Positions 2,402 through 60,799 of a stretch of DNA of 64,000 nucleotides are shown here, piece by piece. Within the stretch, counting starts at the first letter, position 1. Each line of letters begins with the position of its first letter. Origin of the DNA: Indioceanicola profundi (GTDB taxonomy: Bacteria; Pseudomonadota; Alphaproteobacteria; Azospirillales; Azospirillaceae); the NCBI RefSeq assembly GCF_003568845.1, contig NZ_CP030129.1, forward strand, positions 124,001 to 188,000. Direction: 5' to 3'. The translations under genes were made by a program, and so were the position numbers. The notes beneath the pieces were generated by a model. It saw only the letters and a program-made list of their open reading frames with translations, searched no databases and was not told where the DNA came from.

Positions 2402-2734
2402 TCAGTCGCCGTTGCGGCGGCTGGGGCGGGACCAGATGAGGCTGTAACTCTCCTCGCCTTCGATGACGGTGTCGTCGAACAGGTTGGCGTAGATCGGAGC
2501 GGTGAAGCTCGGATCGTCGAGCTTGAGGCTCAGATAGTCGCGGCCCTCGTTCGAGCGCTTGGACCAGGCGGCGCCGATCTCGGCGCGGCCGACGAAGACC
2601 CGGTGGCTGGGGGCGTTGCCGTTGGTCGAGCCCTCTTCGGGGACGATGCGGACGTTCTTGGTCTGGACGCTGAGGGTGACGATCTCGCCGGTGAACTCGT
2701 TGCCGGACTTCTTGAAGGTGCCGATGGTCGCCAT
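2402..2734 (-). CDS. DUF736 family protein
   Basis: A 110-aa protein beginning MATIGTFKKSGNEFTGEI and containing KNVRIVPEE, the usual DUF736 pattern and length. The ATG is preceded by AAGGAG at a good distance. DUF736 proteins are small, unstudied proteins that occur almost only on alphaproteobacterial conjugative and integrative elements. The gene follows a long structured leader (2841-2930) and is the last backbone gene of the element on this side. Family assignment is strong; molecular role unknown. Confidence 0.9.
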   Translation of the reverse strand: MATIGTFKKSGNEFTGEIVTLSVQTKNVRIVPEEGSTNGNAPSHRVFVGRAEIGAAWSKRSNEGRDYLSLKLDDPSFTAPIYANLFDDTVIEGEESYSLIWSRPSRRNGD

Positions 2735-2840
2735 TGTCGTTCTCCTTGATCTCTGCTCCGAGCCCGCACCATTGCGGCCTCGATGGCGATCGGCGGGCCG
2801 AAGGCGATCGACGGCGCACCCGCTTGCGGGCCGGAGCGTC

Positions 2841-2930
2841 AGCGGAGGATGGCGCGAGAGCGACTTTCTTGGCTCGCGAGGAATGGGCGCGCAGCGCTCA
2901 GGGGAAGAAAGTCGATCGGCGCCGTTGCGG
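2841..2930 (-). ncRNA. Candidate structured leader RNA, copy A (upstream of DUF736)
   Basis: Bases 2861-2870 (CGACTTTCTT) pair perfectly with 2905-2914 (AAGAAAGTCG) around a GC-rich inner loop. The stem is flanked by the block AGCGGAGGATGGCG (2841-2854) and by TCGGCGCCGTTGC (2916-2928). The same two blocks flank a different stem of equal geometry at 4943-5035, so the stem covaries while the flanks are conserved. Read on the minus strand it lies about 100-200 bases upstream of the DUF736 start. Apart from this motif, 2735-3310 holds nothing I can identify. Confidence 0.55.
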
Positions 2931-3310
2931 CATAGGCGATCGAGGCGCAGCCGACTTTCGGCCAGATCAGCCCATTGAGAGGCCGTTTGGAGCGGTCGAC
3001 GAGCAGGGACAACTCAAGGAGATGAAGGCGGCCATTCTCGACCAAGAACAGGTCGCGGTGACGTCGCTGACGAGATCGGCTGCCGTCCAGACCCGAAGAC
3101 GCCCGTTCACGTCCGAACCAGGGATCGGCGGTCCGGGGAACGCCTCACACCCTCGTGTCCGGTCCGCACCTTAGGAGGCTCCGTTGTCAGCGCCCGAGAG
3201 CAACGTCGTCATGAGCCTTGCTGACGATTCCGATCGCCGCGATAGCTTTGCCGACAGGATGACGGGAACGGATCGAAGGTAAGATTGAGGCGCTCGCCCG
3301 GCAAGTGCGC

Positions 3311-3751
3311 TCAGGCGCGTGCGATGCTTTGCCCCGTCGGCGCGGGCGCGGCCAAGGTCGTCACGCGCACGAATGCGGTGATGCCGACGGCGATCGCGCC
3401 GATCACGGAGAAGATGAGCTGCCACGTCTCCGACGGCATGGCGTGCTTGACGATTCCGTGCGTGGCGTAGAACCCGGCGATGGCCGCGGGTGCGACAAAG
3501 GCGAGTGCCACGCCCACGCGCAGCCAGACGGGGCGCGCCAGCATCAGGACGATCTGACCGACGAAGAGCGTCAGGAAGGCGGCCACGGCGCCGACGGCGA
3601 TGCCGCCGGGCCAGCCGGCGCCCGCGTGGTAGGCCCAGACGCCCATCGTCACGCCCGCAAAGAGCGGCAGCGCGAAGACGGCCAGCGTGAACAGGAGCCA
3701 GCAGAAGAAACCGATGGCGACGATGCTGAGAAGGATGCCGAGGATCATCAT
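3311..3751 (-). CDS. Small integral membrane protein, unknown function
   Basis: I chose the ATG at 3751 because GGAGG lies eight bases upstream; an in-frame ATG 54 bases earlier has no such site. The 146-aa product starts MMILGILLSIVAIGFF and has four to five hydrophobic helices with short polar loops and no conserved catalytic motif that I recognise. It lies between the DUF2493 gene and the leader of DUF736 and is read in the same direction, so it probably belongs to the element backbone. Confidence 0.6.
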   Translation of the reverse strand: MMILGILLSIVAIGFFCWLLFTLAVFALPLFAGVTMGVWAYHAGAGWPGGIAVGAVAAFLTLFVGQIVLMLARPVWLRVGVALAFVAPAAIAGFYATHGIVKHAMPSETWQLIFSVIGAIAVGITAFVRVTTLAAPAPTGQSIARA

Positions 3752-3896
3752 GGTGGCGGCCTCCGTGACGAAAGATCGATGGGACGCGCCTTCCACCACC
3801 ACCACGGCGCCACTGCGAGCATAGCCGAAGATGTGCGACGGCGGGAGCGGAAATCCGCGCGCCGTGCACGTTCGAGGGATTTGGGGACGGCGGCGC

Positions 3897-4832
3897 TCAC
3901 GTGCCGCCGCTGCCGAACTTCCAGACCGGGATGCCGAGTTTCCTTGCCTTGTCGGCGAGGTTCTCCTGGATGCCGGTGCCGGGGAAGACCATCACGCCGA
4001 TCGGTAGCACCTCCAGCATCGCGTCGTTGCGCTTGAAGGGGGCGGCCTTAGCGTGCCTGGTCCAGTCGGGCTTGAAGGCGATCTGCGGCACGTTCCGGTG
4101 ATCGGCCCAGCGGGCGGCGATGCGTTCGGCGCCCTTCGGCGAGCCGCCATGCAGCAGCACCATGTCGGGGTGCTTGGCGTGGACCTGGTCGAGCTTCGCC
4201 CAGATCAGGTGATGGTCGTTGAAGTCGAGCCCGCCGGTGACGGCCACCTTCGGGCCCGCCGGCAGGAGCACCTCGGCTTCGGCGCGCCTCTTCGCGGCGA
4301 GGAAGTCGCGGCTGTCGATCATCGCCGATGTCATGGCCTTATGATTGACCATGGAGCCGCTGCGTGGCCGCCAGGACGAGCCGGTGTGCCGCTCGAAGTG
4401 CTCGGCGGCCTGGTCGCGCATCAGCTCGAAGGCGTTGCGGCGCTCGATCAGGGTCTGCCCCTCAGCCGTGAGGCGCTCGAGATCGACCGATTTCACCTCG
4501 GAGCCGTCCTGTTCCCTCTGGCTGCGGCGCTGCGCCTGCTCGTTGTCGTCGAGCTCGCGCTCGATCCGGTGGACCGCGCGGTGGAAGAGATTGACAGTCG
4601 ACCAGAGCAGGTCCTCGAGGTCTGGCTCGAGGCGCGTGTCACCCATGGTGGCGATCAGGGCGTCGAAGATGTCGGCAACGGCGCCGGCGATGGCGTTGCC
4701 TTCGGGGAGCGGTCTGGGGTCGGGCTCGTTGTGGAAGGGGCGGAAGCCGTAGAGCTGGAGCTCGGTCAGGACGTGATCGGTCGGTGATGCGCTGTGGTGG
4801 GGCTCGAAGGTGTCGTCGTCTTCGTTCGTCAT
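3897..4832 (-). CDS. DUF2493 domain protein
   Basis: A 311-aa protein starting MTNEDDDTFEPHHSASPTD at an ATG with GGGAG upstream. The N-terminal two thirds are charged and helical. The C-terminal domain (about residues 180-311) begins KVAVTGGLDFNDHHLIW and contains LLHGGSPKGAERIAARWA and VMVFPGTGIQENLADKARKLGIPVW, the Rossmann-like DUF2493/SLOG-type nucleotide-binding pattern. Such proteins are regular members of alphaproteobacterial integrative elements. SLOG-type domains bind nucleotides or nucleotide-derived ligands, but no ligand is known here. A structured leader (4943-5035) precedes it. Confidence 0.85.
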   Translation of the reverse strand: MTNEDDDTFEPHHSASPTDHVLTELQLYGFRPFHNEPDPRPLPEGNAIAGAVADIFDALIATMGDTRLEPDLEDLLWSTVNLFHRAVHRIERELDDNEQAQRRSQREQDGSEVKSVDLERLTAEGQTLIERRNAFELMRDQAAEHFERHTGSSWRPRSGSMVNHKAMTSAMIDSRDFLAAKRRAEAEVLLPAGPKVAVTGGLDFNDHHLIWAKLDQVHAKHPDMVLLHGGSPKGAERIAARWADHRNVPQIAFKPDWTRHAKAAPFKRNDAMLEVLPIGVMVFPGTGIQENLADKARKLGIPVWKFGSGGT

Positions 4833-4942
4833 GGGGATGCTCCCGTGTCGGTTGGCCGCGCCCGCCGCGGCCTTCGTGGCGCCGAAAGACGGTGGGCGGA
4901 GCGGGCCTGCACTCGGGAGCGGAGCGGACGAGCTGGAGCGGC

Positions 4943-5035
4943 AGCGGAGGATGGCGGAGGCCGGTTCTTTTGCTTCGCGCTGCAAAGCGGCCCGGAGGGC
5001 TGCGGCGGAAAAGAACCGGTCGGAGCCATTGCCGG
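4943..5035 (-). ncRNA. Candidate structured leader RNA, copy B (upstream of DUF2493)
   Basis: An 11-bp perfect stem, CCGGTTCTTTT (4961-4971) with AAAAGAACCGG (5009-5019), is flanked by AGCGGAGGATGGCG (4943-4956) and TCGGAGCCATTGC (5020-5032). Both flanks match copy A at 2841-2930, whereas the stem sequence differs but stays paired. It lies in the 327-base gap between the Toprim gene and the DUF2493 gene and would form in the DUF2493 leader. Confidence 0.6.
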
Positions 5036-5159
5036 CCCGGACCGGCTGCCGTCCGGTCGCCCTCTAGAAGGCCGAGGCGCGGCCCTCTCCGGCAGCGGAT
5101 GGGAACAGCCCGCGGCGAAGAGGGTGACGCCGATCCCGCTACCCCTGCCGCCTCGCCGT

Positions 5160-6224
5160 TCAGGCCGGGACGGAGATCTCCATGAAGCGGGCAACATCCT
5201 CTGGAGAGAGCTGGACCCGCACCGATGCCCTGAGGGTGCCGAGACCATGCAGGCGGAGATCCTCGTTGAAGTCGCCCAGCCGCGGCGACAGCGTGAGCGC
5301 CTCGATCCCGGCCGCCTCGGCCCGTTCGACGAGGTGATCCCGGGCGCCGTCGCCGGCCGGATCATCGTCGCGGACGATGTAGACCCGGCGCAGCGCCTGC
5401 GGGAAGGCCAGGGCGGCGAGATGAGCCGCCGAGAGCGCCGCCGCCATCGGCATGGCGGGCAGGACGCATCTGAGCGAGAGCATGGTCTCGATGCCTTCGC
5501 CGGCCGCCATGGTCTCGCCGGCCACGCCGAAGCGCACGGCTTGCCCGAGCAGGTCGCCCATGGCGCGTCGTGGCGTGCCGATCGGCGCCTTGCCGAGCCT
5601 CGCCTCGCTGAAGCCTTCCGGATCGAGCCAGGTGCGATGCGCTCCGGTCAGGTGCCCGGCGAGATCAGTGACGGCAGCGATCATCGCAGGCCAGACCTCT
5701 GTCGGCGCGTGCTCGTCCGGCCGGTAGTAGCAGCGCGGATGGAAACGCAGCGATCCGGTTCCGTACAAAGTCGTAATCCCGCGTTTCCGGAGATACGCCT
5801 CGGCGAGGGTGCCTGCGATCGGTTGTGCCATGGCGAAAAGACGCCGTGCCGCTTCCGGCGATCCCGTCGGTGTGGGAGCTGCCTTGCGCCCTGGCACCGC
5901 CCGGTGCGGTTCGGGATGCGGCAAGCTGAGAAAGCGTCGTGCCTCGTCGGCGATGTCGTGGAAGTCGACGAGACCGAGGGCTTCGCGGATGATGTCGAGC
6001 AGATCGCCGTGCTCTCCAGTGGCGGCGTCGGTCCATTTGCCGGCCGCCCCCTTGCCGGACTCGGGTCCGGTCAAGCGGACGAACATGGAGCGGCCGGGCG
6101 TGTTGCGGACATCGCCCACCATCCAGTAACGCCCCTCGCGCCGTCCGTTGGAGAGATAGGTGCGGCACACAGCCTCGGCGTGATTGCCAAGGCGGCGGGC
6201 CAGGTCCGAGGCGTCCCGGGCCAT
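5160..6224 (-). CDS. Toprim domain protein (primase-like)
   Basis: A 354-aa protein starting MARDASDLARRLGNHAEAVC. The N-terminal part has a zinc-ribbon/DUF7146-like region (CRTYLSNGRREGRYW, GKWTDAATGEHGDLLDIIRE). The C-terminal Toprim domain shows the acidic GEGIETMLSL motif and the VRDDDPAGDGA motif that bind the catalytic metal. The ATG overlaps the upstream helicase stop by one base (TGATG), so the two are translated together. This gene pair recurs in alphaproteobacterial ICEs and probably acts in element DNA processing or replication. It was not possible to tell whether it primes DNA synthesis. Confidence 0.85.
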   Translation of the reverse strand: MARDASDLARRLGNHAEAVCRTYLSNGRREGRYWMVGDVRNTPGRSMFVRLTGPESGKGAAGKWTDAATGEHGDLLDIIREALGLVDFHDIADEARRFLSLPHPEPHRAVPGRKAAPTPTGSPEAARRLFAMAQPIAGTLAEAYLRKRGITTLYGTGSLRFHPRCYYRPDEHAPTEVWPAMIAAVTDLAGHLTGAHRTWLDPEGFSEARLGKAPIGTPRRAMGDLLGQAVRFGVAGETMAAGEGIETMLSLRCVLPAMPMAAALSAAHLAALAFPQALRRVYIVRDDDPAGDGARDHLVERAEAAGIEALTLSPRLGDFNEDLRLHGLGTLRASVRVQLSPEDVARFMEISVPA

Positions 6225-9200
6225 CACGCGACCTCCCGTTCGGCGATGCGCTCGAGCGGGAAGCGGTCCAACACCTTGGCGAGGATCGCGGGACCCGAGG
6301 CGTCCGTCGGCACGAAGAGGCGCAGCTTCCAGGAGATGATCTCGCCGAAAAGCCCATCGGCCTTGAGACGGTCGCGCATGGTCTCGGTGAAACCGGTGAG
6401 CTCGATCCGGTTTGCACCCATGACGCGGGCGCGACGAAGCTGAAGGCCCTCGGCGAGGTCGAGGACGGTGCGCCCGTCCATCACCGCAGCGAAAGCATCG
6501 GCTGGCGAGAGTGCGATCGTACCCGCCGCCGCGGCGGTCGCTGCCCAGGCCGGCGAGACCTTGCGGCCGATGATGCGCTCGCCCGTGTCGGTCTGAAGCC
6601 GGTAGACCCGCGTCGACTCGTTGGGCAGGCGCTTCCAGATCGGCAGCAGGAGGCCGGCGACGATGTGGATCGTGCTGTCGGTGAACTCGGGCACCGACGC
6701 GACCTCCTTCTCCCATGCCTGGACGAAGGCTGTGCGATCGGCCTCGACCCAATGGGTATCGCCCATGACAGAGAGCCCCACGTTAGTCGCCTCCATCGGC
6801 CGGACCAGCCGAACCCGGCGTTCGACCGAGCCATCGTCGTCGATCAGGCTCGTGGTCGGGATGCGCACCGCGGCCCGGCCGGAGCGGTCGTTCACCAGCA
6901 GCGCTGCGCGTGGGTCGGCGAGATGATCGAGCGCCTCGTCGAGCGTCACCGGCCGGTTGCGCTCGCGTTGCGCGATGGTGAGCAGCGTCGTCACCGCGCC
7001 GGTCGCCGGATGAGTGTGGATCGGCTGTCGGTCCGTGACGGTGAAGCGCTCGGCGCGCAGCGTCTCCAGCCCGATATCGTAGGTTCCGCTGGCGATCGCG
7101 CCTTCGATCCGGGCGGTGAGCAGCTGCTCGAAGCTCGCGAAGAGGACGTTCTGCAGGTCGATGGTCAGCGCCAGCACGCGGTTGAGGAAGGTGGTGATCG
7201 GCGGCAACTCGTCCCTGGCGCCGTTCGCATCGGTGAGCTTGAGCCCGGTCGTCTCCTCGAAGACCTGGAGCGGGCAACCCTCGACCTTGCCGGCGACTAT
7301 CAGCAAATAGAGCCGCCGCAGCGCATCGCGCGCATAGGCGCTCTCGAGATTGTCCTCGGCGCGGAACAGGCCCTGGCCGCCAGTCTGGCGTGCCCCTCGC
7401 GTGATCGCGCCCAGCGTGTCGAGACGCCGAGCGATGGTCGAGAGGAAGCGCTTCTCCGCCTTCACGTCGGTGGCGATCGGGCGGAAGAGCGGCGGCTGCG
7501 CCTGGTTGGTGCGGTTGGTCCGCCCGAGACCCTGGATGGCGGCATCGGCCTTCCAGCCCGGCTCCAGCAGGTAGTGGACCCTGAGCCGCCGGTTCTTCGC
7601 GGCGAGATCGGCATGGTAGGAGCGCCCGGTGCCGCCGGCGTCCGAGAAGACCAGGATTCGCTTGGCGTCATCCATGAAGGCCTGTGTCTCGGCGAGGTTG
7701 GCCGCGACGGCGCGGCTTTCGACGGCGAGGCGGTCGCCCCTGCCGTCGGCGCCCGACTTCCGGACGATGCGCCGCGAGCGGCCCGTCACCTCGGCCACCA
7801 TCTCGGTGCCAAAGCGCTGGACGATCTGGTCGAGCGCTCCGGGCACCGGCGGCAGCGAGGCGAGTTTCTCGATCAGCCGGTCGCGCCGGGCGACGGCTTC
7901 ACGGCTTTCGACCGGCTGGCCGTCACGGAACACCGGCCGCGAGCAGAGGTTGCCCTCGCCGTCGGTGAAGGGCTCGTAGAGCTGCACCGGGAAGGAGTGC
8001 GAGAGGTAGTCGAGGACATATTCGCGCGGGGTGATGTCGACCTGGACGTCGTTCCAATCCTCGGTCGGGATCTCCGCGAGCCGGCGCTCCATCAGCGCCT
8101 CGCCGGTCGAGACGATCTGCACGACGGCGGCGTGGCCGTTCTCGAGATCCCGTTCGATCGCACCGATCAGCGACGGCGTCTTCATCGCCGTGATGAGGTG
8201 ATTGAAGAAGCGCTGCTTGGCGCTCTCGAAGGCCGAGCGGGCAGTGGACTTCGCCTGGCCGTTCAGCGTTCCGGTGTCGCCGGTGACGTTGGTCGCCCGC
8301 ATGGCGGCGTCGAGGTTGTTGTGGATGATCGCAAAGGCGCCGGCGTAGGCGTCGTAGATGCGCCGCTGCTCCGGCGTGAGCCGGTGCTCGATGAGCTCGT
8401 ATTCGACACCCGCGTAGGAGAGCGAGCGGGCTTGATAGAGGCCGAGCGCATTGAGGTCGCGCGCCAGCACCTCCATGGCGGCGACACCGCCATCCTCGAT
8501 CGCCTCGACGAACTCCGCGCGCGTGGCGAAGGGGAAGTCCTCGCCGCCCCAGAGGCCGAGACGCTGGGCGTAGGCGAGATTGTGCACGGTGGTGGCGCCG
8601 GTCGCCGAAACGTAGACGACGCGCGCGTCCGGCAGCGCGTGCTGGAGACGAAGCCCGGCGCGGCCCTGCTGCGAGGCGGCCTGCTCGCCGCGTTCGCCCT
8701 TCGAACCCGCGGCATTCTGCATGGCGTGGCTCTCGTCGAAGACGATCACTCCGTCGAAGTCGGAGCCCAACCAGTCGACGATCTGCTGGACGCGCGAAAC
8801 CTTCGCTCCGCGCTCGTCGGAGCGCAGCGTGGCGTAGGTCGTGAAAAGGATGCCTTGCGCCAGACGGATCGGCGTTCCCTGGCGAAAGCGCGACAGCGGC
8901 GTGACCAGCAGGCGCTCCTGGCCGAGCGCCGACCAGTCGCGCTGCGCGTCCTCGATCAGCTTGTCGGACTTTGAGACCCAGACCGCACGCCGGCGGCCCT
9001 TGAGCCAGTTGTCGAGCAGGATGCCGGCGACCTGCCGGCCCTTGCCCGCGCCGGTGCCGTCGCCGAGGAACCAGCCGCGCCGGAAGCGCACGGCGCCGTC
9101 GTGGTCGTCGGTGGCCGCGGTGACGACATCGTAGGTCTCATCGACAGCCCAAGCGCCGGCGAGGTGCTGGGCATGGGCCTCGCCGGCATAGATGAGGCTC

Positions 9201-10567
9201 TCCAGCTGGGCGTCGGACAGCGTGCCGTCGGCGACGAGATGCGGCGGCAGGTGCGGGCGATAGCTCGGCTTGGGCGGTGCCACCGAGGCCATGGCCGCGG
9301 ATTGCACGAGCGTGGTCGGATGCGCCTGTGCGCCGGGAATGCGGATCGATTGCAGCGCGTAGTCCTCATAGAGGACGTCGGTGAGGTGCACGCCTCCGGC
9401 CGGCACCCAGTCGACGGTCTCGTAGGCGAGTTCTTCACCTCCGGATTGGAACGTCGTTGCTGTCTTCGTGGGAGTACGGGTATCGGCAGGCAGGCCGGTC
9501 TCCACACGCCGCGTAGCCTTGCAGACGGGCACCTTCTCGGGAAGCGACACCGGCGAGCGCGGCGGCACATGAGCTTCGATCCACGCGAGCAGCGTGGCGA
9601 CATCGGGCGCCGTGCCCGGCGAGGCCGGGAAGGACGCGGGATCGTCGGCCGGAACCTTGTCGATCACGGTGAGCCGCGTGTCGATTGTCGTCCCGTGCCT
9701 CGCATAGACACGGCCGTCGACGGCGGCAGTGAAGACGATGCGGCCGCACCCCTGCAGGCGGACGAAGGCGTCGCGCCATCTCGGAGCATCGGGCGCGAAG
9801 CCGGCGCCGGTGATGGCGACGAGCCGCCCGCCGGGCGCCAGGCGCGCCAGCGCCGAGGCGACATGGCGCCAGGCGGCGTCCGCCATGCGCCCAGAGACGT
9901 TCGCCATCGCCGAGAAGGGCGGGTTCATCAGCACGACGCTGGGCACGACGCTCGCGTCGAGGTGATCGTCGATCTGGGCGGCGTCGAAACGGGTGACGAG
10001 GGTGGCCGGGAAGAGTGCGGCGAGAAGATCGGCGCGGGCCCCGGCGAGCTCGTTGAGCGCGAGCGTGCCGTCGGCGATCTCGGCGAGGATCCCGAGGAGA
10101 CCCGTGCCGGCGGACGGCTCCAGCACGAGATCCTCACCCGTGATCGCAGCCGCCGTCGCTGCGGCGAAGCCGAGGGCGATCGGCGTGGAGAACTGCTGGA
10201 AAGCTTCGCCCTCTTCGGAGCGGCGTGTGTGCGACGGCAGAAGATCCGCGACCTTCGCCAGCAGCGGCAGCGTGGCGGCCGGAGAACCGGCTTTGCGGAA
10301 AATCGCCTTGCCGTATCTGCGCAGGAACAGGACAGCCGTGCCTTCGCAGGCATCATAGGCGGTCTTCCAGTCCCAGACGCCCTCGGCGTCGGACCCGCCG
10401 AAGGCGGCGTCCATCGCGGCGCGCAAGGTGGGTGCGTCGATGATGCGGCCCCGTTCGAGATGGGAGAGGAGCAGACCGGCGGCATCGAAGATGCGCGGAG
10501 CGGGGTGGATCGGAACGGCAGGGCGGGCAGCGGCGTCGAGCGCCGCCAAGGGGATCGGACGTGTCAT
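6224..10567 (-). CDS. Strawberry-notch-like helicase with N-terminal methyltransferase-like domain
   Basis: A 1447-aa protein starting MTRPIPLAALDAAARPA; the ATG has GAGG upstream. Residues about 100-300 form a SAM-dependent methyltransferase-like domain, with PSAGTGLLGI at 151-160 and the NPPF motif at about 215-218. Residues about 480-700 form the Strawberry-notch/SNF2-type ATPase, with GDGTGAGKGRQ at 502-512 and FDESHAMQN from about 610. A C-terminal helicase half contains QGLGRTNRTNQAQ. Such fusions are standard large genes of alphaproteobacterial integrative elements and phages, proposed to act in DNA modification or anti-restriction; this role is inferred. It is coupled to the downstream Toprim gene. 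Confidence 0.88.
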   Translation of the reverse strand: MTRPIPLAALDAAARPAVPIHPAPRIFDAAGLLLSHLERGRIIDAPTLRAAMDAAFGGSDAEGVWDWKTAYDACEGTAVLFLRRYGKAIFRKAGSPAATLPLLAKVADLLPSHTRRSEEGEAFQQFSTPIALGFAAATAAAITGEDLVLEPSAGTGLLGILAEIADGTLALNELAGARADLLAALFPATLVTRFDAAQIDDHLDASVVPSVVLMNPPFSAMANVSGRMADAAWRHVASALARLAPGGRLVAITGAGFAPDAPRWRDAFVRLQGCGRIVFTAAVDGRVYARHGTTIDTRLTVIDKVPADDPASFPASPGTAPDVATLLAWIEAHVPPRSPVSLPEKVPVCKATRRVETGLPADTRTPTKTATTFQSGGEELAYETVDWVPAGGVHLTDVLYEDYALQSIRIPGAQAHPTTLVQSAAMASVAPPKPSYRPHLPPHLVADGTLSDAQLESLIYAGEAHAQHLAGAWAVDETYDVVTAATDDHDGAVRFRRGWFLGDGTGAGKGRQVAGILLDNWLKGRRRAVWVSKSDKLIEDAQRDWSALGQERLLVTPLSRFRQGTPIRLAQGILFTTYATLRSDERGAKVSRVQQIVDWLGSDFDGVIVFDESHAMQNAAGSKGERGEQAASQQGRAGLRLQHALPDARVVYVSATGATTVHNLAYAQRLGLWGGEDFPFATRAEFVEAIEDGGVAAMEVLARDLNALGLYQARSLSYAGVEYELIEHRLTPEQRRIYDAYAGAFAIIHNNLDAAMRATNVTGDTGTLNGQAKSTARSAFESAKQRFFNHLITAMKTPSLIGAIERDLENGHAAVVQIVSTGEALMERRLAEIPTEDWNDVQVDITPREYVLDYLSHSFPVQLYEPFTDGEGNLCSRPVFRDGQPVESREAVARRDRLIEKLASLPPVPGALDQIVQRFGTEMVAEVTGRSRRIVRKSGADGRGDRLAVESRAVAANLAETQAFMDDAKRILVFSDAGGTGRSYHADLAAKNRRLRVHYLLEPGWKADAAIQGLGRTNRTNQAQPPLFRPIATDVKAEKRFLSTIARRLDTLGAITRGARQTGGQGLFRAEDNLESAYARDALRRLYLLIVAGKVEGCPLQVFEETTGLKLTDANGARDELPPITTFLNRVLALTIDLQNVLFASFEQLLTARIEGAIASGTYDIGLETLRAERFTVTDRQPIHTHPATGAVTTLLTIAQRERNRPVTLDEALDHLADPRAALLVNDRSGRAAVRIPTTSLIDDDGSVERRVRLVRPMEATNVGLSVMGDTHWVEADRTAFVQAWEKEVASVPEFTDSTIHIVAGLLLPIWKRLPNESTRVYRLQTDTGERIIGRKVSPAWAATAAAAGTIALSPADAFAAVMDGRTVLDLAEGLQLRRARVMGANRIELTGFTETMRDRLKADGLFGEIISWKLRLFVPTDASGPAILAKVLDRFPLERIAEREVA

Positions 10568-11181
10568 GCAGGAGACCTCGGGAGAGCGGGAACGGGCGGA
10601 GCCGATCGGCGCTCTCTCTGACCGCACCGGCTCGAACCCGTCCCGGCAGGCCTCTCGCTCTCATCACGGCATCGTCCTTCGCGTGCGGGCGCTGGCGGCC
10701 GACGGTCCCAACTCCAGCCCAGGAACTGGTTCTGATCCATCCGTTTGGAGGCTAGACTCGCCAACCAAGACAATCCGGATCCGGCCATCCCTCCGCGAGG
10801 GCGCACCCTTGGCAGAGGAGATATGACCATCACGAGGAGGTGACGATGGGAGAAGTTCGGTGGGCGTCATCGAGGTGACTGCCCTCAAGGTCGGCTTTGG
10901 GGCCCGACTCGAAATGCATTCGGTCCTGCTTTCGACGGGGCCGTCCATTGTGTGGCCGACACTTGTCCTCTATGCGGACAATCCGAGCTTTCGCTGCGGT
11001 CGCCCCAATGGCGGGTATCTGCATCTCGCGATAAAGACGATGAGACGATCGGCACGTCGGGCAAAATACAGACCGTTGCCACGCCTGCAGCCGTCGGCGC
11101 CACACTGTGCCGGCCGATTGGAGAGCAACACCGTCGATTTCAACCCAAGCGGCGGGAAAGCTCGCTCGGTTACCGGACAGA
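10568..11181. other. Non-coding gap with partial leader element
   Basis: No convincing gene is seen on either strand in these 614 bases. Positions 10586-10646 hold a weakly paired element (GCGGGAACGGG against CCCGTCCCGG) containing ACCCGTCCCGGCA. It resembles the conserved leaders of the ParB-like and ArdC genes (AACCCGTCACGGCA) and lies directly upstream of the helicase start, so it may be a diverged third copy. Confidence 0.4.
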
Positions 11182-20036: not shown

Positions 20037-22148
20037 TCATTCGGCGGCGACCGCCTGCGGATCCCCGACGGCTTCGTCCTCGGTGTCCTCGTCGTCGGCG
20101 AGGAAGGCCGGAAGCGCGTCGGTGTCGCCCGCGTCACCGTCCGCCGGCTGATCGTCGACCGGCGGCAGACGCAGCGGGTCGGGCAGCCAGCCGCTGTCGG
20201 CTAGGAGCCGTTCGGCCTCCTTCGCCATCTCCGGCTTCTTCAGGTGGTCGATGAGCTGGGCGGTCTCTGCGCCCTTCGCCTCGCGCACCGCCTCGAGGAT
20301 GCGGGGCTTGGTGACGCGGCCGAGATAGTTGTCGACCGTCGGACGCCAGCCGGCCTCCACCATGTCGAGGCCGACGGCGCGTGCCAGCCGGTCCGCCTCG
20401 CGTATGCGCTGCTGGACGCCGTGCGCGGTCGGACCGGCGCCGTAGCGATCGCCCCTCTCGGAGAGCGCGTTGACGCCGTAAGAGACGCAGTGCGCGAGGA
20501 GCGCCATGCGGCTCACGTCGTCGAGCCCGTCGATCCGATCCCACAGCGCGTCATCGTCGCCCGGCAGATCGGCCTTCCAGGCCTCCTGCCGTTCGGCGAT
20601 CGCTTTGGCGGACGCGCTATCTTTGAGGTCGGCGGCCTGGATCGGGAAGAAAACGTGGCGCACTGACGCTTCCAGGCATCCCGGTGCGGAGACGTGCTGG
20701 AAGGTGTCGCGCACCAGCCTGTGGAGCAGTGCCGTCACGGCGACGTGCGGGTTGTCCGCCAGCGCGTCGCGCAGCGCGAGTGTGCGATGCGCCGTGAGTT
20801 CGGTCACCAGACGCTCGGGCAGCGGCCTGACCGTGTCGTCCTCGTCTTCGGGGACCTCGGGCTCGCCGCCGACGGTGATGATCGTGCGCTGCATGGCGCC
20901 GTCCACTCCGGTGCCGGCTGCGCCGTCAACCTCCGCCTCGCCCTCGGGCTTGCCCTCCGGGACTTCGTCCTCGGGGCGGACATAGCCGCGCTCGACCGCG
21001 AGCCGACCGTCATGGCCGATGGTAACGAAGGCGCCGGCGCGGGCGATGTCGGCGGCGTCGTAGTGGACGGGCCGATCCTCGAAGGCCTCCAGCGCCGCCT
21101 CGATCTTACCCAGTCGTTCGTCTACCGCGTCGGGCAGCTCGTCGGCCTCGGCGTATTCGGCCTCGAGCCGCTCGAGCTCGTCGCGCAACGCCTCGCGGGT
21201 GGCGCGCTCCTCGTCGGTGAGGCCGATCTGCGTGCCGACGAGCGTGCGCAGGCCGTTCGTGTGGCCGTAGGGGAAGTCGGCCGCCACCGCGATCCACTTC
21301 CAACCCTCCTCGGCGACCGTCTCCGCCTCGGCCTTGAGCCTCTCGGCGACGAGGCGCTCCAACAGCGGCACGTCCTCGACCCAGCCGCCGTCGTCGTCCT
21401 GGAATAGGTCGCGCATCACGATCCCTCCGGCCTGTTCGTAGGCCGCCAGCGTGACGAACTGCACCCGGCGATCGGAGGCGCGGACGGTGTTCTCCGTCAG
21501 CATACGACGGATCTGATAGGGCTCCTTCGACCAGGAATGCTGGATCGCTTCCCAGACCTGCTGTTGCCGCACATGGTCGGTCGAGACGGTGAAGGCCATC
21601 AGCTGCTCGAGCGTCATGCCGTCCTCGGCATAGGTGTCGAGCAGCGTCTGCGACACGGTGACGAGCCTGAGCCGCTGCTTGACGACGTTGACCGAGACGA
21701 AGAAGCGCGCCGCGATCTCCTCCTCGGTGAGGCCCCGCTCGCGCAGCGCCTGGAAGGCGCGGAATTGGTCGAGCGGGTGAAGCGCCACGCGCTGGACATT
21801 CTCGGCCAGCGAGTCCTCCTCGGCTGGGATGTCGGTGCCCGCTTCGCGCACGACGCAGGGCACGGGCGCGGTCTTGGCGAGGCGCTTCTTCGTGGTGAGC
21901 AGCTCAAGAGCGCGGTAGCGGCGGCCGCCGGCCGGGATCTCGAACATGCCGGTCTCGTTACCCTCGCCATCCAGGACCGGCCGGACGTTAAGGCTCTGCA
22001 GCAGGCCGCGGCGGGCGATGTCCTCGGCCAGCTCCTCGATCGAGACGCCGGCCTTTACGCGCCGGATGTTCGACTGGGAGAGGACGAGCTTGTTGAAGGG
22101 GATGTCTCGCGAGGTGCTCAGAGTGATCTTCTGTGTGGCGGTTGCCAT
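20037..22148 (-). CDS. ParB/RepB/Spo0J-family protein of the integrative element
   Basis: A 703-aa protein starting MATATQKITLSTSRDIPFNK. The ParB N-terminal nuclease-like fold is visible at about residues 20-130 (IPAGGRRYRALELL, SLAENVQRVALHPLDQF), followed by the HTH region (EEEIAARFFVSVNVVKQRLRL). The long acidic C-terminal half has no motif I can name. At 703 aa it is far longer than partition ParB proteins (about 300 aa), and no ParA is adjacent, so it is more likely a regulator or DNA-processing factor of the element. A conserved leader (22158-22207) precedes it. Confidence 0.85.
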   Translation of the reverse strand: MATATQKITLSTSRDIPFNKLVLSQSNIRRVKAGVSIEELAEDIARRGLLQSLNVRPVLDGEGNETGMFEIPAGGRRYRALELLTTKKRLAKTAPVPCVVREAGTDIPAEEDSLAENVQRVALHPLDQFRAFQALRERGLTEEEIAARFFVSVNVVKQRLRLVTVSQTLLDTYAEDGMTLEQLMAFTVSTDHVRQQQVWEAIQHSWSKEPYQIRRMLTENTVRASDRRVQFVTLAAYEQAGGIVMRDLFQDDDGGWVEDVPLLERLVAERLKAEAETVAEEGWKWIAVAADFPYGHTNGLRTLVGTQIGLTDEERATREALRDELERLEAEYAEADELPDAVDERLGKIEAALEAFEDRPVHYDAADIARAGAFVTIGHDGRLAVERGYVRPEDEVPEGKPEGEAEVDGAAGTGVDGAMQRTIITVGGEPEVPEDEDDTVRPLPERLVTELTAHRTLALRDALADNPHVAVTALLHRLVRDTFQHVSAPGCLEASVRHVFFPIQAADLKDSASAKAIAERQEAWKADLPGDDDALWDRIDGLDDVSRMALLAHCVSYGVNALSERGDRYGAGPTAHGVQQRIREADRLARAVGLDMVEAGWRPTVDNYLGRVTKPRILEAVREAKGAETAQLIDHLKKPEMAKEAERLLADSGWLPDPLRLPPVDDQPADGDAGDTDALPAFLADDEDTEDEAVGDPQAVAAE

Positions 22149-22157
22149 GGTGGGTTG

Positions 22158-22207
22158 CTCCGCGACGGGTGCCGAGAGCCTCTCTCTCGACTTCCAACCC
22201 GTCACGG
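22158..22207 (-). promoter_or_regulatory. Conserved structured leader of the ParB-like gene
   Basis: This 50-base segment differs at only three positions from 25033-25082 upstream of ardC. On the minus strand it reads CCGTGACGGG ... CCCGTCGCGG (9 of 10 paired) enclosing a smaller hairpin (CTCGAG-type arms). The 3' arm runs straight into GGAG, the probable ribosome-binding site ten bases before the ATG. That geometry would let the hairpin affect translation. Confidence 0.6.
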
Positions 22208-24066: not shown

Positions 24067-25025
24067 GCCACTGTCCTGTCGCAAGAGGGCTCCGCTTCGA
24101 TCGTCTGCTGCACGTCCTGCGACGCGAACGCCAAGAGCCAGTCGGCGGCCTTGCTCGCCTGGCTGGCAGCGCGAACGATGGCACGGTTGTCCTCGCGCAG
24201 GACCTCGAGCCAGGAGCCGATGTAATCGGCGTGCCGGACAGTCGGCGCGGTGCCGAGCGAGGCGCAGCAGAAGGCGGCGTTGATCTCTGCGACCAGCTCT
24301 TCGAACGCGTACTTCTTCGACCCGAACGAGCCCGAGAGGTCCCGCCCCAGGCGCGACACATGCCCGGTTGCGTGCCCGAGTTCGTGGAGCGCGGTGCGGT
24401 GCCAGTTGATCGTCTCGAAATAGGCCTGCGGCGGCGGCACCTGCACATAGTCCTGCGCCGGCACGTAGAAGGCCCGGTCACCGCCGATGCGGAAATCGAT
24501 GCCAGTCGCCTTGACCAGCGCCTCTACCGTTGGCTCGATCAGTCCCTGCGGGACTGGTGGCGCGGCCGTGGCGACATCGTCCGGCAGGTTCTCGCACTGG
24601 TCAGTGTTGAAGACGGTGAAGCGCTTCAGGAATGGGATCGCCTGCGCGTCCTCGCCGGTCTCCGCGGCCCGCCGCTTCTCGTCCTCCGGCACGAAGCGGT
24701 CGGCATAGACGACGGTGGTGCCGCGCTCACCCTTGCGGACATTGCCGCCGAGCGACAGCGCCTGGCGGAAGGTGAGCCAACTCTGGCCGCCGAAGCCGCG
24801 CTCGACCACGGCACCCCACAGGAGCAGCACGTTGATCCCGGAATAACGCCGGCCGGTCGCGGCGTTCTGCGGAAGGCCAAGCGGCGCCTTTGCCGCGGCC
24901 GTGCCCCAGGGCTGGACCCAGGGCACGCGGCCCGCCTCCAGCTCGGCGATGATCTTGTCGGTGATTTCAGAATAGAGGTTGGTCCGGTCGCGACTGGCGC
25001 CGGGCCTGCGGGCGTGTCTGGACAT
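24063..25025 (-). CDS. ardC: ArdC-like antirestriction protein (ssDNA-binding and metallopeptidase domains)
   Basis: A 320-aa protein. The N-terminal ssDNA-binding domain (residues about 15-140) shows YSEITDKIIAELEAG, PWVQPW and GINVLLLWG. The C-terminal zincin domain has HELGHATGH with a downstream Glu (FEELVAEINAAF). ArdC-type proteins protect incoming plasmid ssDNA and antagonise restriction during conjugation. GGAG lies seven bases upstream of the ATG, within the conserved leader hairpin. It is coupled to the DUF2958 gene. Confidence 0.88.
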   Translation of the reverse strand: MSRHARRPGASRDRTNLYSEITDKIIAELEAGRVPWVQPWGTAAAKAPLGLPQNAATGRRYSGINVLLLWGAVVERGFGGQSWLTFRQALSLGGNVRKGERGTTVVYADRFVPEDEKRRAAETGEDAQAIPFLKRFTVFNTDQCENLPDDVATAAPPVPQGLIEPTVEALVKATGIDFRIGGDRAFYVPAQDYVQVPPPQAYFETINWHRTALHELGHATGHVSRLGRDLSGSFGSKKYAFEELVAEINAAFCCASLGTAPTVRHADYIGSWLEVLREDNRAIVRAASQASKAADWLLAFASQDVQQTIEAEPSCDRTVA

Positions 25026-35025: not shown

Positions 35026-36762
35026 CTAGATCGCAATTTCCAAGATGCTTTCATTCCCAAACCAGTCCCGAACTACTCCAAGGGCTTTGTCCGAGAGAAG
35101 TTGAGTGAACACCAGAGCAAGACGCGTTTTCGGTCGAGAGCACGCGACGTAGAACAGATTGCGATTTTTCTCATAGCTGTCTAGCCGCTCTGGCGGAACG
35201 GAACCCGGATTGGCCGAAAGCTCTAGCATTTCGTTGAAGTTATAGATGTTCCACCCGCGACCAAGCAGTACAATCACGTTTTCGAACTCGGCACCCTTAA
35301 CTCCGTGCTTTGTCTCAAACGGAGAGTGACCGTCAAGGTAACGAGCCAAGCTAATCATTTCTGAATATGGAACTGATCTAAGCTTCTCCAATTCCGCTAT
35401 TGGTCGCGGGAGCTCATCACCCGCCTCCAAAAGCCGACGTCGCAGAGTTTCCCTCTTCTGGATATTCTCCGGAATTGATGGTCGCCCGGTAGCGATAAGG
35501 TGGTCAATGACTTCGCCGACTGTCCCACTAGACCGGACCTCCAACAAGGCTGCTAGCGCCGTTGCCCACGCCTGCTTATCACTCATTCTTTTGACAGCCG
35601 GAAAGCGGCCTCCAAGGCATTCAAACATTGCACCATAGCGACGTTGAATGAAAAAATTACAGGCCGGTTCAAGCTGATCCGCAAAGAACGCGACCAATTC
35701 ATCTTCCTTCTTCGTAAACGACTCCTTGTACTGAAAAACGCCGGGTAAGCTTCCATAGCCTTGTCTTGCTGCAATCCCACGGTGCGTAAGCATGAGGATC
35801 TTGGTAACGTCCGGCGCCAAATCCCAACCGCGTGTCGTAAGATCGTCGAGTGTGAAATTTAATGCGCTTTGAGCAGCGTCAGCAGGTAGATCTCCCGCCC
35901 AATGCCCACCTTTGAGTCTGGTCCCAACCCAGGCGTTGCTATGATAGACGTAAACACTTCCAGCTGCGTCGGGATCGGCTACTTCCTGCATCAGATCAGG
36001 GCGCATTCGATTAAGGCAATTTACGACGGCCGGAACTGAGCGGAAGTTTGCCCGCTTACCGACCACCCGGAGGTTCTGATGTTCGATTTTCCCACACCCC
36101 TCGCCGTAAATGCTTTGCCAGTTATCTCCAAAGAATGCGAGTTGGAGGGTCCCTGGAGTCTCGAGGAAACACTGTTTAAGAGCCGAAACAAACTGGGCAT
36201 TAGTGTCCTGGTATTCATCAATCAAAATTACAGGAAAGCGATGACATAAGAGGCTTCGGAACTTCACATTGGACAGCAGATCAACAGCGAGGGGGATAAC
36301 GTCGTCGTGATGAATTGAAGCGACGCCTTCTTTTATCGAACGGTATCCCAGATCATAATGAACTGATGTGATAGGCGCATCAGCCTCCGCGATTTTCTCT
36401 GGCCAATACTTCAGCGTGGGAAGTAGCTTTCGAAGCTCTTTCTGATGGCTACTGATTAAGGACCAGCAAAATCCATGTGTCGTGTCGCAGTGCACGAGGG
36501 GGTCATGGTCTACGTGGCGCTCGATCTCATCTTTAGCAACATTGGTGAATGTGATGCAGGCGATCTTCTGCCTATTCTGCGTCATTGCCTGGCGCCTGGA
36601 ATCAAGAAGATGCTTTAGCGCCTTCCGTAGCGTGTACGTCTTCCCGGCTCCTGCACCTGCCTCCAATAAGAAGCTCTGGCCAGAATCGAGGCAGTCAAAC
36701 ACTTCCCGGAGTGCCACTTCGCTAGCACGTTCTGCTGGACTTGCTTCCCGTCTGACCGTCAT
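35026..36762 (-). CDS. gajB: UvrD/PcrA-like helicase, GajB of a Gabija-type system
   Basis: A 578-aa SF1A helicase. Walker A EAGAGAGKT (about residues 36-44), motif II LIDEYQDTN, motif III FFGDNWQSIYG, KGAEFENVIVLLGRGW and the closing NLFYVACSRPKTRL are all present. It overlaps the OLD-family nuclease gene by four bases (ATGA). An OLD nuclease followed by a UvrD-like helicase defines Gabija (class 2 OLD). The protein is longer than the GajB of Bacillus (about 494 aa). In Gabija the two proteins form a complex that attacks phage DNA. Confidence 0.8.
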   Translation of the reverse strand: MTVRREASPAERASEVALREVFDCLDSGQSFLLEAGAGAGKTYTLRKALKHLLDSRRQAMTQNRQKIACITFTNVAKDEIERHVDHDPLVHCDTTHGFCWSLISSHQKELRKLLPTLKYWPEKIAEADAPITSVHYDLGYRSIKEGVASIHHDDVIPLAVDLLSNVKFRSLLCHRFPVILIDEYQDTNAQFVSALKQCFLETPGTLQLAFFGDNWQSIYGEGCGKIEHQNLRVVGKRANFRSVPAVVNCLNRMRPDLMQEVADPDAAGSVYVYHSNAWVGTRLKGGHWAGDLPADAAQSALNFTLDDLTTRGWDLAPDVTKILMLTHRGIAARQGYGSLPGVFQYKESFTKKEDELVAFFADQLEPACNFFIQRRYGAMFECLGGRFPAVKRMSDKQAWATALAALLEVRSSGTVGEVIDHLIATGRPSIPENIQKRETLRRRLLEAGDELPRPIAELEKLRSVPYSEMISLARYLDGHSPFETKHGVKGAEFENVIVLLGRGWNIYNFNEMLELSANPGSVPPERLDSYEKNRNLFYVACSRPKTRLALVFTQLLSDKALGVVRDWFGNESILEIAI

Positions 36763-38813
36763 TTGTCGGTTGTCTCCAGGTTCACAGCGTTTTCGAGCGC
36801 GTTTGTTACCATAGCCAGCTTGGGATCAGGGACAGGCACGCCGATCGACGCAAGCCAGTGGAGGCCCTCTGCGATGTACGTGGGTGTCTTCCAGTCACTG
36901 ACTTCGATAGCGTAGTGAAGTGCAAATTCTGCCTTTTTGACTGCCCCAGCCTGACCGCGCGCGTTGTCTTCTTTATCGCCTCGCGTTTTACCGGCTACTG
37001 TAAAATGATCTGGGTTCGCCAGAATGAATGCATCCTCGAAGGATCGACCACACGGTCCATTTGGCGTCTCAGGAACTTGGTAAGCAATTCGTCTATTTCC
37101 TATCACCTTGTCTAATTGCGTCTTGCTAAGAAGTATATCGGGCGATAGGGATTCGCCGCTAAACCATGATTTCAGGCAAGCATTACTCGTTGCTTTTCCC
37201 AAGTGCACCGAACAAGCGGAACCCCCAGGTTTCTCCACTGAGTCAATATCAGTTATGACCAGAGAAGGGAGCTCTAGAAAATCTAGTAGATCGAAGAATA
37301 AATGAGCATAGGCGCCTCCTACTTCCATGAGAGAGTAGTACTGCCCTTGGAGAAGATGATCGTGGTTTCGCAGCATCACTGGAACCAGCAGGCGCTCGCT
37401 TGTTCCTTCCACAAGAATAGCCTTGTCCGCAAAGAAAAGATCGCATCGAGTAAGGGTCATGTATTGGTGAAGAAACTTCAGTTGCGCAGGGTCTATGCTG
37501 CTCATTCCCTGACGCAAGTCTTTCACTTTCGTATGACGGACTCCTTTCGCATCTGTCTCTGTTACATAGAGGAAGTACCTTATAGATTCAAACCCCGCTT
37601 GGTTAGCTATGTGTGATGAATGAGTCGAGACCACGAATTGGACTGGCCACCCTAGAGCGCTACCAATGGACTGACTGAGCATATCGGAGATCGAGGCAAG
37701 CTTACGGATGAATACTTCTTGCATTTGAGGGTGAAGGTGTGCCTCTGGTTCCTCGATAAATATGAGATGAGCTCCTGGCGGGGATTCATCCGCTCTGTAT
37801 TCTTTGAAGAAGCTAACTATCAGCAGCAGCATGAAAATCAGGTTGCGGGTCCCCAATCCATTATAGGACTCTGGCAGCGAAACGCCTATAACGTCTTCAT
37901 ATTTGATTTTGGTATGGTTTGTGAGTATGCGCTTTCCATCCAGTAACGTTTCAAGGCGGAGCTCCGTGCCGCCGAGACCTGGATAGCCGAAAGACTTCAG
38001 AGTGGGCATCAGCTCTTTAAGCTTATTATTGAAGTCGGAATCAATGGTGGCTTCCATATCCCGGATCGCAGCCTCAAATGCTGCAGCGACAGACTGGTCG
38101 CTTGGATCGGCATTTGGGGAAGAGGCTGTAGTAAACAGATTTTCGAATATCTTTGCCAGAATGTCTGACTCTTTCGATGTGTTGTCATCTAACCCCCGTT
38201 GGGCGTTGACGAAGCCAGTTCTCATAAGAGATTTGAGTGAGCTCTGCGGCATCGTTTTCTGGTTGTCGGGATCATTTGGATCTTGTGCCCAAACGGATGC
38301 TGAAAACAGTGCTGGTATACGTTCCTTCAATGCGCGGAAGAAAGTTTTGCGGTCCTCAGCGGATGCTATTGGAGCGGCGAATCCATCGAATAAGGCGTGC
38401 GACTTACCAGCTTCTAGTTCGTAGCGTACCACCACCAAGACTTCGGAACAGCTTTCGTCGAGGTCGACTACAAAGTCACTGAGAGCTCCAAGGGGGGCAT
38501 CGTCTTCAGGATACTGAAAATAAGCACAGAGTTGGATGAACGGCAGTGAAGGGCGAATGGTAGCATCATCGTTGCCGGCCAGTGTAAGCTCGAGGCATTC
38601 GCAAAACTGGTCGAAGCAAGAGCTCGAAAAATCTTCGAGTTGAAAGCGGGGGCTGTCAGAGCCAAACATTCGCCTCATCAACTCTGCTAAAGACGTTTTT
38701 CCACTATTGTTGCGCCCTACGATTACGGTGGTTTTAGGCTCGAGAACCAATTCTATATTCTGAAGTAGGCGGAAGTTATTCACGCGTACCCGTTTTAGAA
38801 GCATATCTTCCAC
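36759..38813 (-). CDS. gajA: OLD-family ATP-dependent endonuclease, GajA of a Gabija-type system
   Basis: A 684-aa protein. The ABC/RecF-like ATPase shows FRLLQNIELVLEPKTTVIVG with Walker A GRNNSGKTS (33-41), a signature-like SYNGLGTRNLIFMLL and Walker B IFIEEPEAHLHPQMQ. A C-terminal Toprim domain follows (ADKAILVEGTSERLLVP, LVITDIDSVEK). This is the OLD class 2 architecture. In Gabija, GajA is a sequence-specific nuclease restrained by nucleotides and freed during phage infection. Base composition here is clearly lower in G+C than the flanks, which points to separate transfer. Confidence 0.82.
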   Translation of the reverse strand: MEDMLLKRVRVNNFRLLQNIELVLEPKTTVIVGRNNSGKTSLAELMRRMFGSDSPRFQLEDFSSSCFDQFCECLELTLAGNDDATIRPSLPFIQLCAYFQYPEDDAPLGALSDFVVDLDESCSEVLVVVRYELEAGKSHALFDGFAAPIASAEDRKTFFRALKERIPALFSASVWAQDPNDPDNQKTMPQSSLKSLMRTGFVNAQRGLDDNTSKESDILAKIFENLFTTASSPNADPSDQSVAAAFEAAIRDMEATIDSDFNNKLKELMPTLKSFGYPGLGGTELRLETLLDGKRILTNHTKIKYEDVIGVSLPESYNGLGTRNLIFMLLLIVSFFKEYRADESPPGAHLIFIEEPEAHLHPQMQEVFIRKLASISDMLSQSIGSALGWPVQFVVSTHSSHIANQAGFESIRYFLYVTETDAKGVRHTKVKDLRQGMSSIDPAQLKFLHQYMTLTRCDLFFADKAILVEGTSERLLVPVMLRNHDHLLQGQYYSLMEVGGAYAHLFFDLLDFLELPSLVITDIDSVEKPGGSACSVHLGKATSNACLKSWFSGESLSPDILLSKTQLDKVIGNRRIAYQVPETPNGPCGRSFEDAFILANPDHFTVAGKTRGDKEDNARGQAGAVKKAEFALHYAIEVSDWKTPTYIAEGLHWLASIGVPVPDPKLAMVTNALENAVNLETTDK

Positions 38814-58300: not shown

Positions 58301-58528
58301 GACGGCGAGGAACGCCGTCGAGAGCGGGTAGGTGACCTGGTCCTCCACCACCTGGGGCGCCTGTCCGGGCCAACTGGTCTTGACGATGACCTGCACGTCG
58401 GAGAGGTCGGGGATGGCGTCGACGGGGGTGTTCCGGGCAGCCCAGATGCCCCCTGCCGCAAGGATAGCCGCGAGCAGCAGGACGATCAGCCTGTTGGCGA
58501 CGGACCAGTGGATCAGGCGGGCAATCAT
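55346..58528 (-). CDS. cusA: Heavy-metal RND efflux pump CusA
   Basis: A 1060-aa HME-RND permease. The N-terminus MIARLIHWSVANRLIVLLLA, the porter domain (VQVIVKTSWPGQAPQVVEDQ, QYVLVDRTGQHDISELRTLQ), the proton-relay helix with GGIAIAIGAMVDAAIVMVES, and EFMPSLNEGDLLYMPSLLPD are typical. The C-terminus is intact. The ATG overlaps the cusB stop (ATGA). It exports Cu(I)/Ag(I) from the periplasm and cytoplasm to the outside. Confidence 0.93.
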   Translation of the reverse strand: MIARLIHWSVANRLIVLLLAAILAAGGIWAARNTPVDAIPDLSDVQVIVKTSWPGQAPQVVEDQVTYPLSTAFLAVPGAKTVRGYSMFGDSYVYVLFEDGTDLYWARSRVLEYLSQIAPRLPVGATPALGPDATGVGWIYQYVLVDRTGQHDISELRTLQDWFLKFELQSLPGVAEVAPIGGMVRQYQVVVDPDALRAYDLPLAAVQEAIQAANQSSGGSVLEMAEAEYMVRASGYVQSVEDLEAVPLKANPGGVPVLLRDVAEIRTGPELRRGVSELNGEGEVTGAVVILRQGENALAAIKAVEARIEELRPSLPNGVEIVTTYDRSDLIERAVDNLWHKLGEEFIVVVLVSAAFLLHLRSSLVVVLTMPLGVLAAFIVMHFQGVNANIMSLGGIAIAIGAMVDAAIVMVESLHRRIEQEPITRENRWRLVSETAAEVGPALFSSLVIITLSFLPVFALEAQEGRMFKPLAYTKTYAMAASAILSVTLVPVLMGLFVRGRIVPERRNPLNNLLIWLYRPALNAALAAPWTVIIAAVLLVASMAYPLSKTGSEFMPSLNEGDLLYMPSLLPDVSISKATELMQITDRLIKTVPEVETVHGKIGRAESATDPAPIAMFETTIRLKPREEWRPGMTLDGIRAELDRVVQIPGMPNTWTMPIKNRIDMLATGIKTPVGIKVFGPDLEGIGKVASEIEAVVKTVPGATSAYAERPAGGRYIDVEVDRLAAARYGLSVAEVQQVVRAAIGGEEVTQTVEGTRRFPVNVRFAQAWRDSPEALASLPVVTPSGAHIALGEVAKVRIEDGPSMLKTENARLTASIFVDIADRDLGSFVADAKRAVAEQVTLPPGYSLTWTGQFEYMARVQDRLTAIVPLTLALIALMLWLTFRRGAEVLIVLTSLPVALAGGMWLIWYLGFNLSVAVSVGFIALAGVAVETAVIMLVYLNIAMKRHEQLAMTEGRSVTVQDIREAVIEGAVLRLRPKAMTVATIFAGLLPIMVGEGTGSEVMQRIAAPMIGGMATTTVLTLAVVPAVFLVWQRARLRKQPAVFLDGASPSSLPARAAD

Positions 58529-60285: not shown

Positions 60286-60373
60286 ATACATTGTCCTCTG
60301 AACGAGCAGGTCGAACGGACCCCGCCCGGTGCGCAAGGCAACCCGGAACGTCAGGGGTCGAGTCAGCTGGTCG

Positions 60374-60799
60374 TCAGATGGTCTGCGGAGGGCGCTGCGG
60401 TGGGGCCACCACATGCGGCGGCAGATGGCCCTGGACGTGCCATTCCGCATGCGCGGGCCGCATTGCCGCAAGCGTGACCGCCTGCGGCGGCGTGATCGCA
60501 CACATGGCGAAACACGACATGCCGTCCATCACCTGGCAGGGGGCGGAACCGTCCTCGGTGGTGTCCAAGCATGGAGGCTGGGCAGCCATTCCAGGTCCGC
60601 CCAGATCGGACATGGCGGTCATTTCACCCATGGCATCGCAGGGCATCGTCATGGTGGGAGAAGCCATCGCCGGGGCTGCAGCCCCAACCACCCCCACGAA
60701 GTGCGCCAGCACCATCGCCAGTACCAAGCACAGCCCGACGGCGCGGCGCATTGCGCTGCCCGCGGTGGTCCTGTGTCGAATGGTGGCCTTGGTACTCAT
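60374..60799 (-). CDS. Exported Met/Cys/His-rich protein of the copper operon
   Basis: A 141-aa product starting MSTKATIRHRTTAGSAMRRA, with a signal-like helix (GLCLVLAMVLAHFVGVVGAA). The mature part contains MTMPCDAMGEMTAMSDLGG and several Cys/Met residues (CQVMDGMSCFAMC). It is read with cusB after an 88-base gap. It resembles DUF2946-type or other small exported metal-linked proteins, but I cannot assign a family. Confidence 0.55.
   Translation of the reverse strand: MSTKATIRHRTTAGSAMRRAVGLCLVLAMVLAHFVGVVGAAAPAMASPTMTMPCDAMGEMTAMSDLGGPGMAAQPPCLDTTEDGSAPCQVMDGMSCFAMCAITPPQAVTLAAMRPAHAEWHVQGHLPPHVVAPPQRPPQTI

Follow-up and report, generated by a model that had tools for sequence, protein, structure and literature searches.

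What folds upstream of two backbone genes on a plasmid of Indioceanicola profundi, on which strand, and to what end? In the 64,000-nucleotide stretch of this plasmid that was analyzed (the window), two segments share their flanks and enclose stems of different sequence, one segment lying 5' of a DUF736 gene and the other 5' of a DUF2493 gene. The initial annotation took them for copies of a structured leader RNA, perhaps peculiar to ICEs. The comparative evidence described below fits better with a single-stranded DNA structure on the strand transferred in conjugation than with an mRNA leader.

Copies of the element and their surroundings

The two copies and their parts are listed in Table 1. 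As annotated, they share flanks, with the exact sequence AGCGGAGGATGGCG at 2841 and 4943 and nowhere else in the window, and enclose paired stems that differ in sequence, P1 being 10 bp long in copy 1 and 11 bp in copy 2. This flank recurs once elsewhere in the genome, at C4:121743, within a third copy (C4:121735-121839) that lies ~2.2 kb before the window, is nearly identical to copy 1, and precedes another DUF736 gene. The neighboring genes had also been named correctly, and both are on the minus strand.

Further genes of the leading region follow, among them an ArdC-like antirestriction gene (24129-25013), directly 5' of which no element was found. The plasmid also carries genes of other kinds. 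A UvrD-like helicase adjoins an AAA_15 ATPase with an OLD-like TOPRIM domain at 35026-38813 (minus strand), a pair that resembles Gabija-type (GajAB) defence. At C4:108249-111070 (L197:4249-7070), ~13-16 kb before the window and near traG, a SMODS nucleotidyltransferase and a patatin-like phospholipase resemble a CBASS pair. An AcrB-family RND efflux pump and a CusB/CusF-like membrane-fusion protein at 55346-60501 (minus strand) represent heavy-metal efflux cargo.

Table 1. Element copies, their parts, and leading-region genes (window coordinates).
Feature	Position	Strand	Basis
Core of element copy 1, class A, upstream of DUF736	2833..2937	+	Covariance model R1, 106.7 bits, E 2.6e-19; copy is in the model seed
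Copy 1 helices P0; P1; apical P2	2849-2853/2921-2925; 2861-2870/2905-2914; ~2886-2899	+	19-sequence structure
Copy 1 internal loop, conserved, with CTCGCGAGG and GGGG		+	
Larger T-strand fold enclosing copy 1: side hairpin and core within a long outer pairing	2755..2995	+	Homologue alignment, helix scan; DNA fold -66.1 kcal/mol
Core of element copy 2, class B, upstream of DUF2493	4935..5041	+	R1, 90.6 bits; copy is in the model seed
Copy 2 helices P0; P1; inner hairpin	4951-4955/5025-5029; 4961-4971/5009-5019; 	+	19-sequence structure
Copy 2 conserved loop, TTCGCGCTG		+	
Larger T-strand fold enclosing copy 2, closed by outer pairing, e.g., GCGGCCTTC with GAAGGCCG	4845..5085	+	Alignment, helix scan; DNA fold -77.6 kcal/mol
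DUF736 gene, 3' of copy 1; ATG 98 nt from element	2402..2734	-	ORF, homology; paralogue Pfam PF05284
DUF2493/YAcAr (SLOG) gene, 3' of copy 2; ATG 102 nt from element	~3897..4832	-	Pfam PF10686, homology
Toprim-domain gene, next leading-region gene	5199..6209	-	tblastn E 1.6e-85
Strawberry-notch-like NTPase, leading region	6224..10627	-	Pfam PF13872, PF13871
ParB-like protein, leading region	20037..22205	-	Pfam
ArdC-like antirestriction gene, leading region	24129..25013	-	tblastn 60% identity, E 4.5e-120

A covarying core within a larger fold

The structure was derived from an alignment of 19 homologues. The alignment reveals a nest of three helices, 5 bp (P0), 10 bp (P1), and 4 bp (P2) long, and the unpaired residues GGA, TTG..CGCG, GG, and TTGC are conserved. 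Paired cells make up 95.0% of the total, compared to 77.5% in shuffles, and the covariation score is 0.521 versus 0.201. Two-sided changes affect 13 of the 19 pairs, against 7.3 in shuffles, and alignments slid out of the true register pair in only 37-57% of cells. Single-sequence folding energies range from z -0.6 to -2.3; copy 1, upstream of DUF736, is unexceptional by energy (z -0.94), and the case therefore rests on comparison.

Alignments of the two classes of element, A and B, contain extra long-range pairing outside the core. In class A, this pairing includes a helix of nine pairs, seven of which have two-sided changes. Together with a side hairpin, the outer pairing gives a branched fold of ~240 nt, and the start codon lies a few tens of nt from its base. 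The core measures ~105 nt and the whole element probably ~240 nt, the outer helix being less certain than the core.

Distribution and spacing to downstream genes

The element is found well outside the window. A blastn search of PLSDB with copy 1 matches 667 plasmid records (E up to 1), in 236 of which a single locus covers 80% or more of the query, and many matches are on plasmids of Agrobacterium, Rhizobium, Bradyrhizobium, and Sinorhizobium. The fetched homologues fall into the two related classes, A (5' of DUF736) and B (5' of DUF2493). Genomes were searched with the covariance model R1 at three ranks. In the taxonomic class, 18 of 240 carry the element; in the order, 31 of 82 do, and in the phylum, 33 of 299. 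The last figure includes four genomes of another class, which suggests a wider spread of these plasmids or ICEs. Two viral-collection contigs bearing DUF736 carry the element as well. A search of Rfam release 15 gives no match at the gathering threshold and, with the cut-off relaxed to E 5, still none at the element. The observation behind the annotation is confirmed and extends well beyond what was first described: R1 recovers many homologues with compensatory changes, and the element is uncatalogued.

Its position relative to genes is close to fixed. Among 154 unique contexts, 80 precede DUF736, 54 DUF2493, two ArdC, and 18 other genes, which include more DUF736-like and DUF2493-like genes. 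The start codon, as estimated from homology, is at a median of 95 nt from the element for DUF736 and 96 nt for DUF2493, mostly within 82-107 nt. One ArdC gene (PF08401, PF18818) begins 98 nt from the element. In another context, the product of the gene 73 nt away is SSB-like, its match to Pfam SSB (E 2.7e-4) falling short of the family cut-off. An independent test used 80 DUF736 loci recruited by protein alone among named records, and in all 80 the element is 82-122 nt 5' of the start codon; a sequence-only model likewise recovers it at such loci. The DUF736 protein has no sequence relative in the PDB. Its AlphaFold model is all-beta (mean pLDDT 82); Foldseek gives no match at E ≤ 0.001 and VIA-align a best Z of only 5.9, and the model therefore provides no functional clue.

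The folded strand

Mispairs within helices, G.T as opposed to A.C, can tell which strand of a nucleic-acid element folds, and an mRNA-sense structure would show the opposite excess from the one observed here. Counted on the plus (gene-antisense) strand as sequences rather than events, and hence inflated by relatedness, helix mispairs are G.T in 98 cases and A.C in 15 among 137 non-redundant hits. The protein-recruited DUF736 set, whose recruitment is independent of the structure but whose alignment was made with R1, gives 49 versus 3 in the helices and 65 versus 11 in the nine-pair helix outside the core. C-to-T deamination of an exposed T-strand, a mutational bias, could raise the G.T count even where selection plays no part. 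Consensus folding with alifold also favors the gene-antisense strand over the mRNA sense (-67.5 versus -54.2, and -72.2 versus -59.7). With DNA energy parameters, the plus strand is more stable in 28 of 30 and 27 of 30 sequences (55 of 60 together). Selection thus appears to act on folding of the plus strand, which is complementary to the mRNA, the genes being on the minus strand; as a T-strand fold, this reading is well supported by the sequence comparisons. What stood of the annotation is a real covarying structure, shared by plasmids and ICEs; what finds no support is the leader RNA, whose polarity is the reverse of the conserved fold. If the class of T-strand promoters proposed below is real, the covariation would be the signature of a functional fold in DNA and not in RNA.

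Position relative to nic and the relaxase

The folded strand can be compared with the strand that is transferred. Ti-type plasmids have traA first, followed by nic (TAATTGCGCCC or TAAGTGCGCCC), traCDG, and then the elements. All 17 elements within 60 kb of a Ti-type nic are on the nic strand, and for 16 of them the nearest nic has the element on its leading side. The remaining one lies between duplicated nics of pTi_Tun180 (NZ_KY000039.1), where three nic-traCDG units occupy 105-118 kb and a DUF736 element is between two of them. The relaxase of the window plasmid is RlxS-like (DUF3363 and Relaxase domains; C4:112776-114566, minus strand). Near DUF3363 relaxases, 62 of 63 elements are on the 5' side of rlxS and on the opposite strand, that is, on the leading side in one orientation. 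The exception (L160; G489:C6:228991-229088, minus strand) has an equal-scoring copy 3.6 kb away on the expected strand, which suggests a local inversion or inverted duplication. The window plasmid has a conserved RP4-like nic-like site, TTTATC(C/T)TGCC, upstream of rlxS, preceded there by the inverted repeat CAAGCCAtgtcagTGGCTTG, and 11 of 20 other elements have the site upstream of rlxS too. These sites are on the same strand as the folded element, and it is established that the T-strand is defined in this manner by nic sequences of the RP4 and IncQ types.

Given these orientations to nic and rlxS, the folded strand is taken to be the T-strand of conjugation, from which the genes are read. 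All leading genes are read from the T-strand; orientation counts and the folding strand are therefore separate lines of evidence, the former placing the genes, and mispairs and folding telling which strand of the element folds. Leading-region position and the T-strand fold are both well supported.

A putative single-stranded DNA promoter

We propose that the element is probably an alphaproteobacterial leading-region promoter active on single-stranded DNA and similar in logic to Frpo, the promoter activity being inferred. The T-strand would enter the recipient 5' end first, and the element would then fold on it into a branched quasi-duplex made of the long outer stem, P0, P1, and P2. RNA polymerase may load onto this folded DNA, perhaps with a plasmid or host factor that reads the conserved loop residues. 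Transcription of the T-strand would proceed into the gene starting ~95 nt away, which is DUF736, DUF2493, or, on some plasmids, ArdC or an SSB-like gene. Establishment proteins could in this manner be made before second-strand synthesis. Since the fold is on the transferred single strand, before early-entering genes, it probably allows their expression to begin while the plasmid is still single-stranded.

Several observations favor this reading: the near-fixed spacing to start codons, the presence of the element at 80 of 80 DUF736 genes, its strand and orientation, and the ArdC and SSB-like genes downstream. Counting against a promoter are the conserved loop residues, which point to a protein that recognizes them specifically. 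No -35/-10 pair in the element exceeds the shuffled background; the F region before ssb, used as a control, scores just 8/12 in the same scan, which is therefore of low power. A broader proposal, somewhat more tentative and only slightly favored, is that these elements form a new class of T-strand-specific promoters, unrelated to Frpo and distributed across Alphaproteobacteria (Ti and rhizobial plasmids, ICEs, and methylotroph and marine plasmids). They would be recognized through the conserved internal loop and drive DUF736, DUF2493, ArdC, and SSB-like genes before second-strand synthesis.

Alternative explanations

The main alternative, itself unlikely, is an ssi site, in which a primase or replisome loader would recognize the folded T-strand to begin second-strand synthesis and the position of the genes would be incidental. 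A T-strand fold in the leading region suits such a site, and Frpo itself, according to the title of a paper by Masai and Arai cited in PMC11541004, was reported to yield primer RNA besides transcripts. However, the tight ~95-nt spacing to the starts of unrelated genes, and the presence of the element before every sampled DUF736 gene, argue for gene expression. Less likely than a priming site, and rather improbable, is an antisense small RNA, which would be transcribed off the plus strand and span the 5' untranslated regions of the DUF736 and DUF2493 genes. Although a folded plus-strand RNA would create the same strand asymmetry, neither strand has a sigma-70-like promoter or an intrinsic terminator at the window copies, Rfam has no match, and the leading-region orientation would be left unexplained. 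The lack of a sigma-70-like double-stranded DNA promoter at the window copies is counted in favor of the single-stranded promoter.

The frequently conserved TCGCGA core and the symmetric stem could also indicate a palindrome to which a dimeric protein binds in double-stranded form, or a cruciform. This is again less likely than a priming site and very improbable: a protein-bound palindrome would keep its letters, whereas the stem varies freely with compensation, and the strand asymmetry of mispairs would be unexpected. The mRNA leader of the initial annotation, of riboswitch or thermosensor type for DUF736 and DUF2493, is the least probable of these readings. It would account for a covarying structure at a near-fixed distance from the start codon, but the G.T mispairs (49 versus 3) are on the other strand and the mRNA-sense fold is weaker. 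Two further candidates were rejected. A protein-coding repeat or short ORF (with a start-like ATGGCG...) conserves neither frame nor ATG, and the spacing of conserved anchors modulo 3 is 1, 2, and 0 in 39, 11, and 24 sequences, so no reading frame is kept. An attC-like or transposon hairpin was dropped because of the fixed start-codon spacing and the gene association.

Comparison with known systems

In the papers found, single-stranded DNA promoters are detected by similarity to enterobacterial Frpo or by -35/-10 boxes (PMC9849209; PMC11541004), and alphaproteobacterial plasmids, including Ti plasmids, would therefore be missed. R1 would provide a defined, searchable motif for leading-region control in these plasmids, and the element marks likely establishment or anti-defence genes. 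Literature searches on DUF736 together with DUF2493, and on Frpo in Alphaproteobacteria, returned nothing relevant. DUF736 (msi110) is a backbone gene, often duplicated, on all Mesorhizobium ICEs of PMC8627217; the gene family is the same as here, and the passages of that paper drawn on describe no upstream element. Like Rfam families, the element is a covarying intergenic structure before specific genes, but it is on the wrong strand for a leader.

The closest parallel is in F and related plasmids, where non-coding leading-region DNA is described as folding, when single-stranded, into a stem-loop from which early genes, ssb among them, are transcribed ahead of second-strand synthesis; in F, ssb lies 3' of Frpo2 (PMC9849209; PMC11541004). 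Like Frpo1 and Frpo2 of F and the ssi/Frpo-like sequences of ColIb-P9, the element occurs in the leading region in several similar copies on a folded T-strand (PMC9849209; PMC11541004). As in F and ColIb-P9, it is upstream of establishment genes, ssb and antirestriction genes among them, that are read from the T-strand. Unlike Frpo, it has its own sequence and fold, with a CGCGA-containing internal loop and three covarying helices, and no evident -35/-10; a search of the F leading region with R1 finds no relative at E up to 10. The relaxases that the element accompanies are Ti-type TraA and RlxS, and it is found in bacteria those papers leave unmentioned. It shares position, strand, repetition, and gene type with Frpo, but R1 detects no homology to F and no -35/-10 signal is visible in scans of low power, and it is therefore described here as an element that would work like Frpo rather than as a member of that group.
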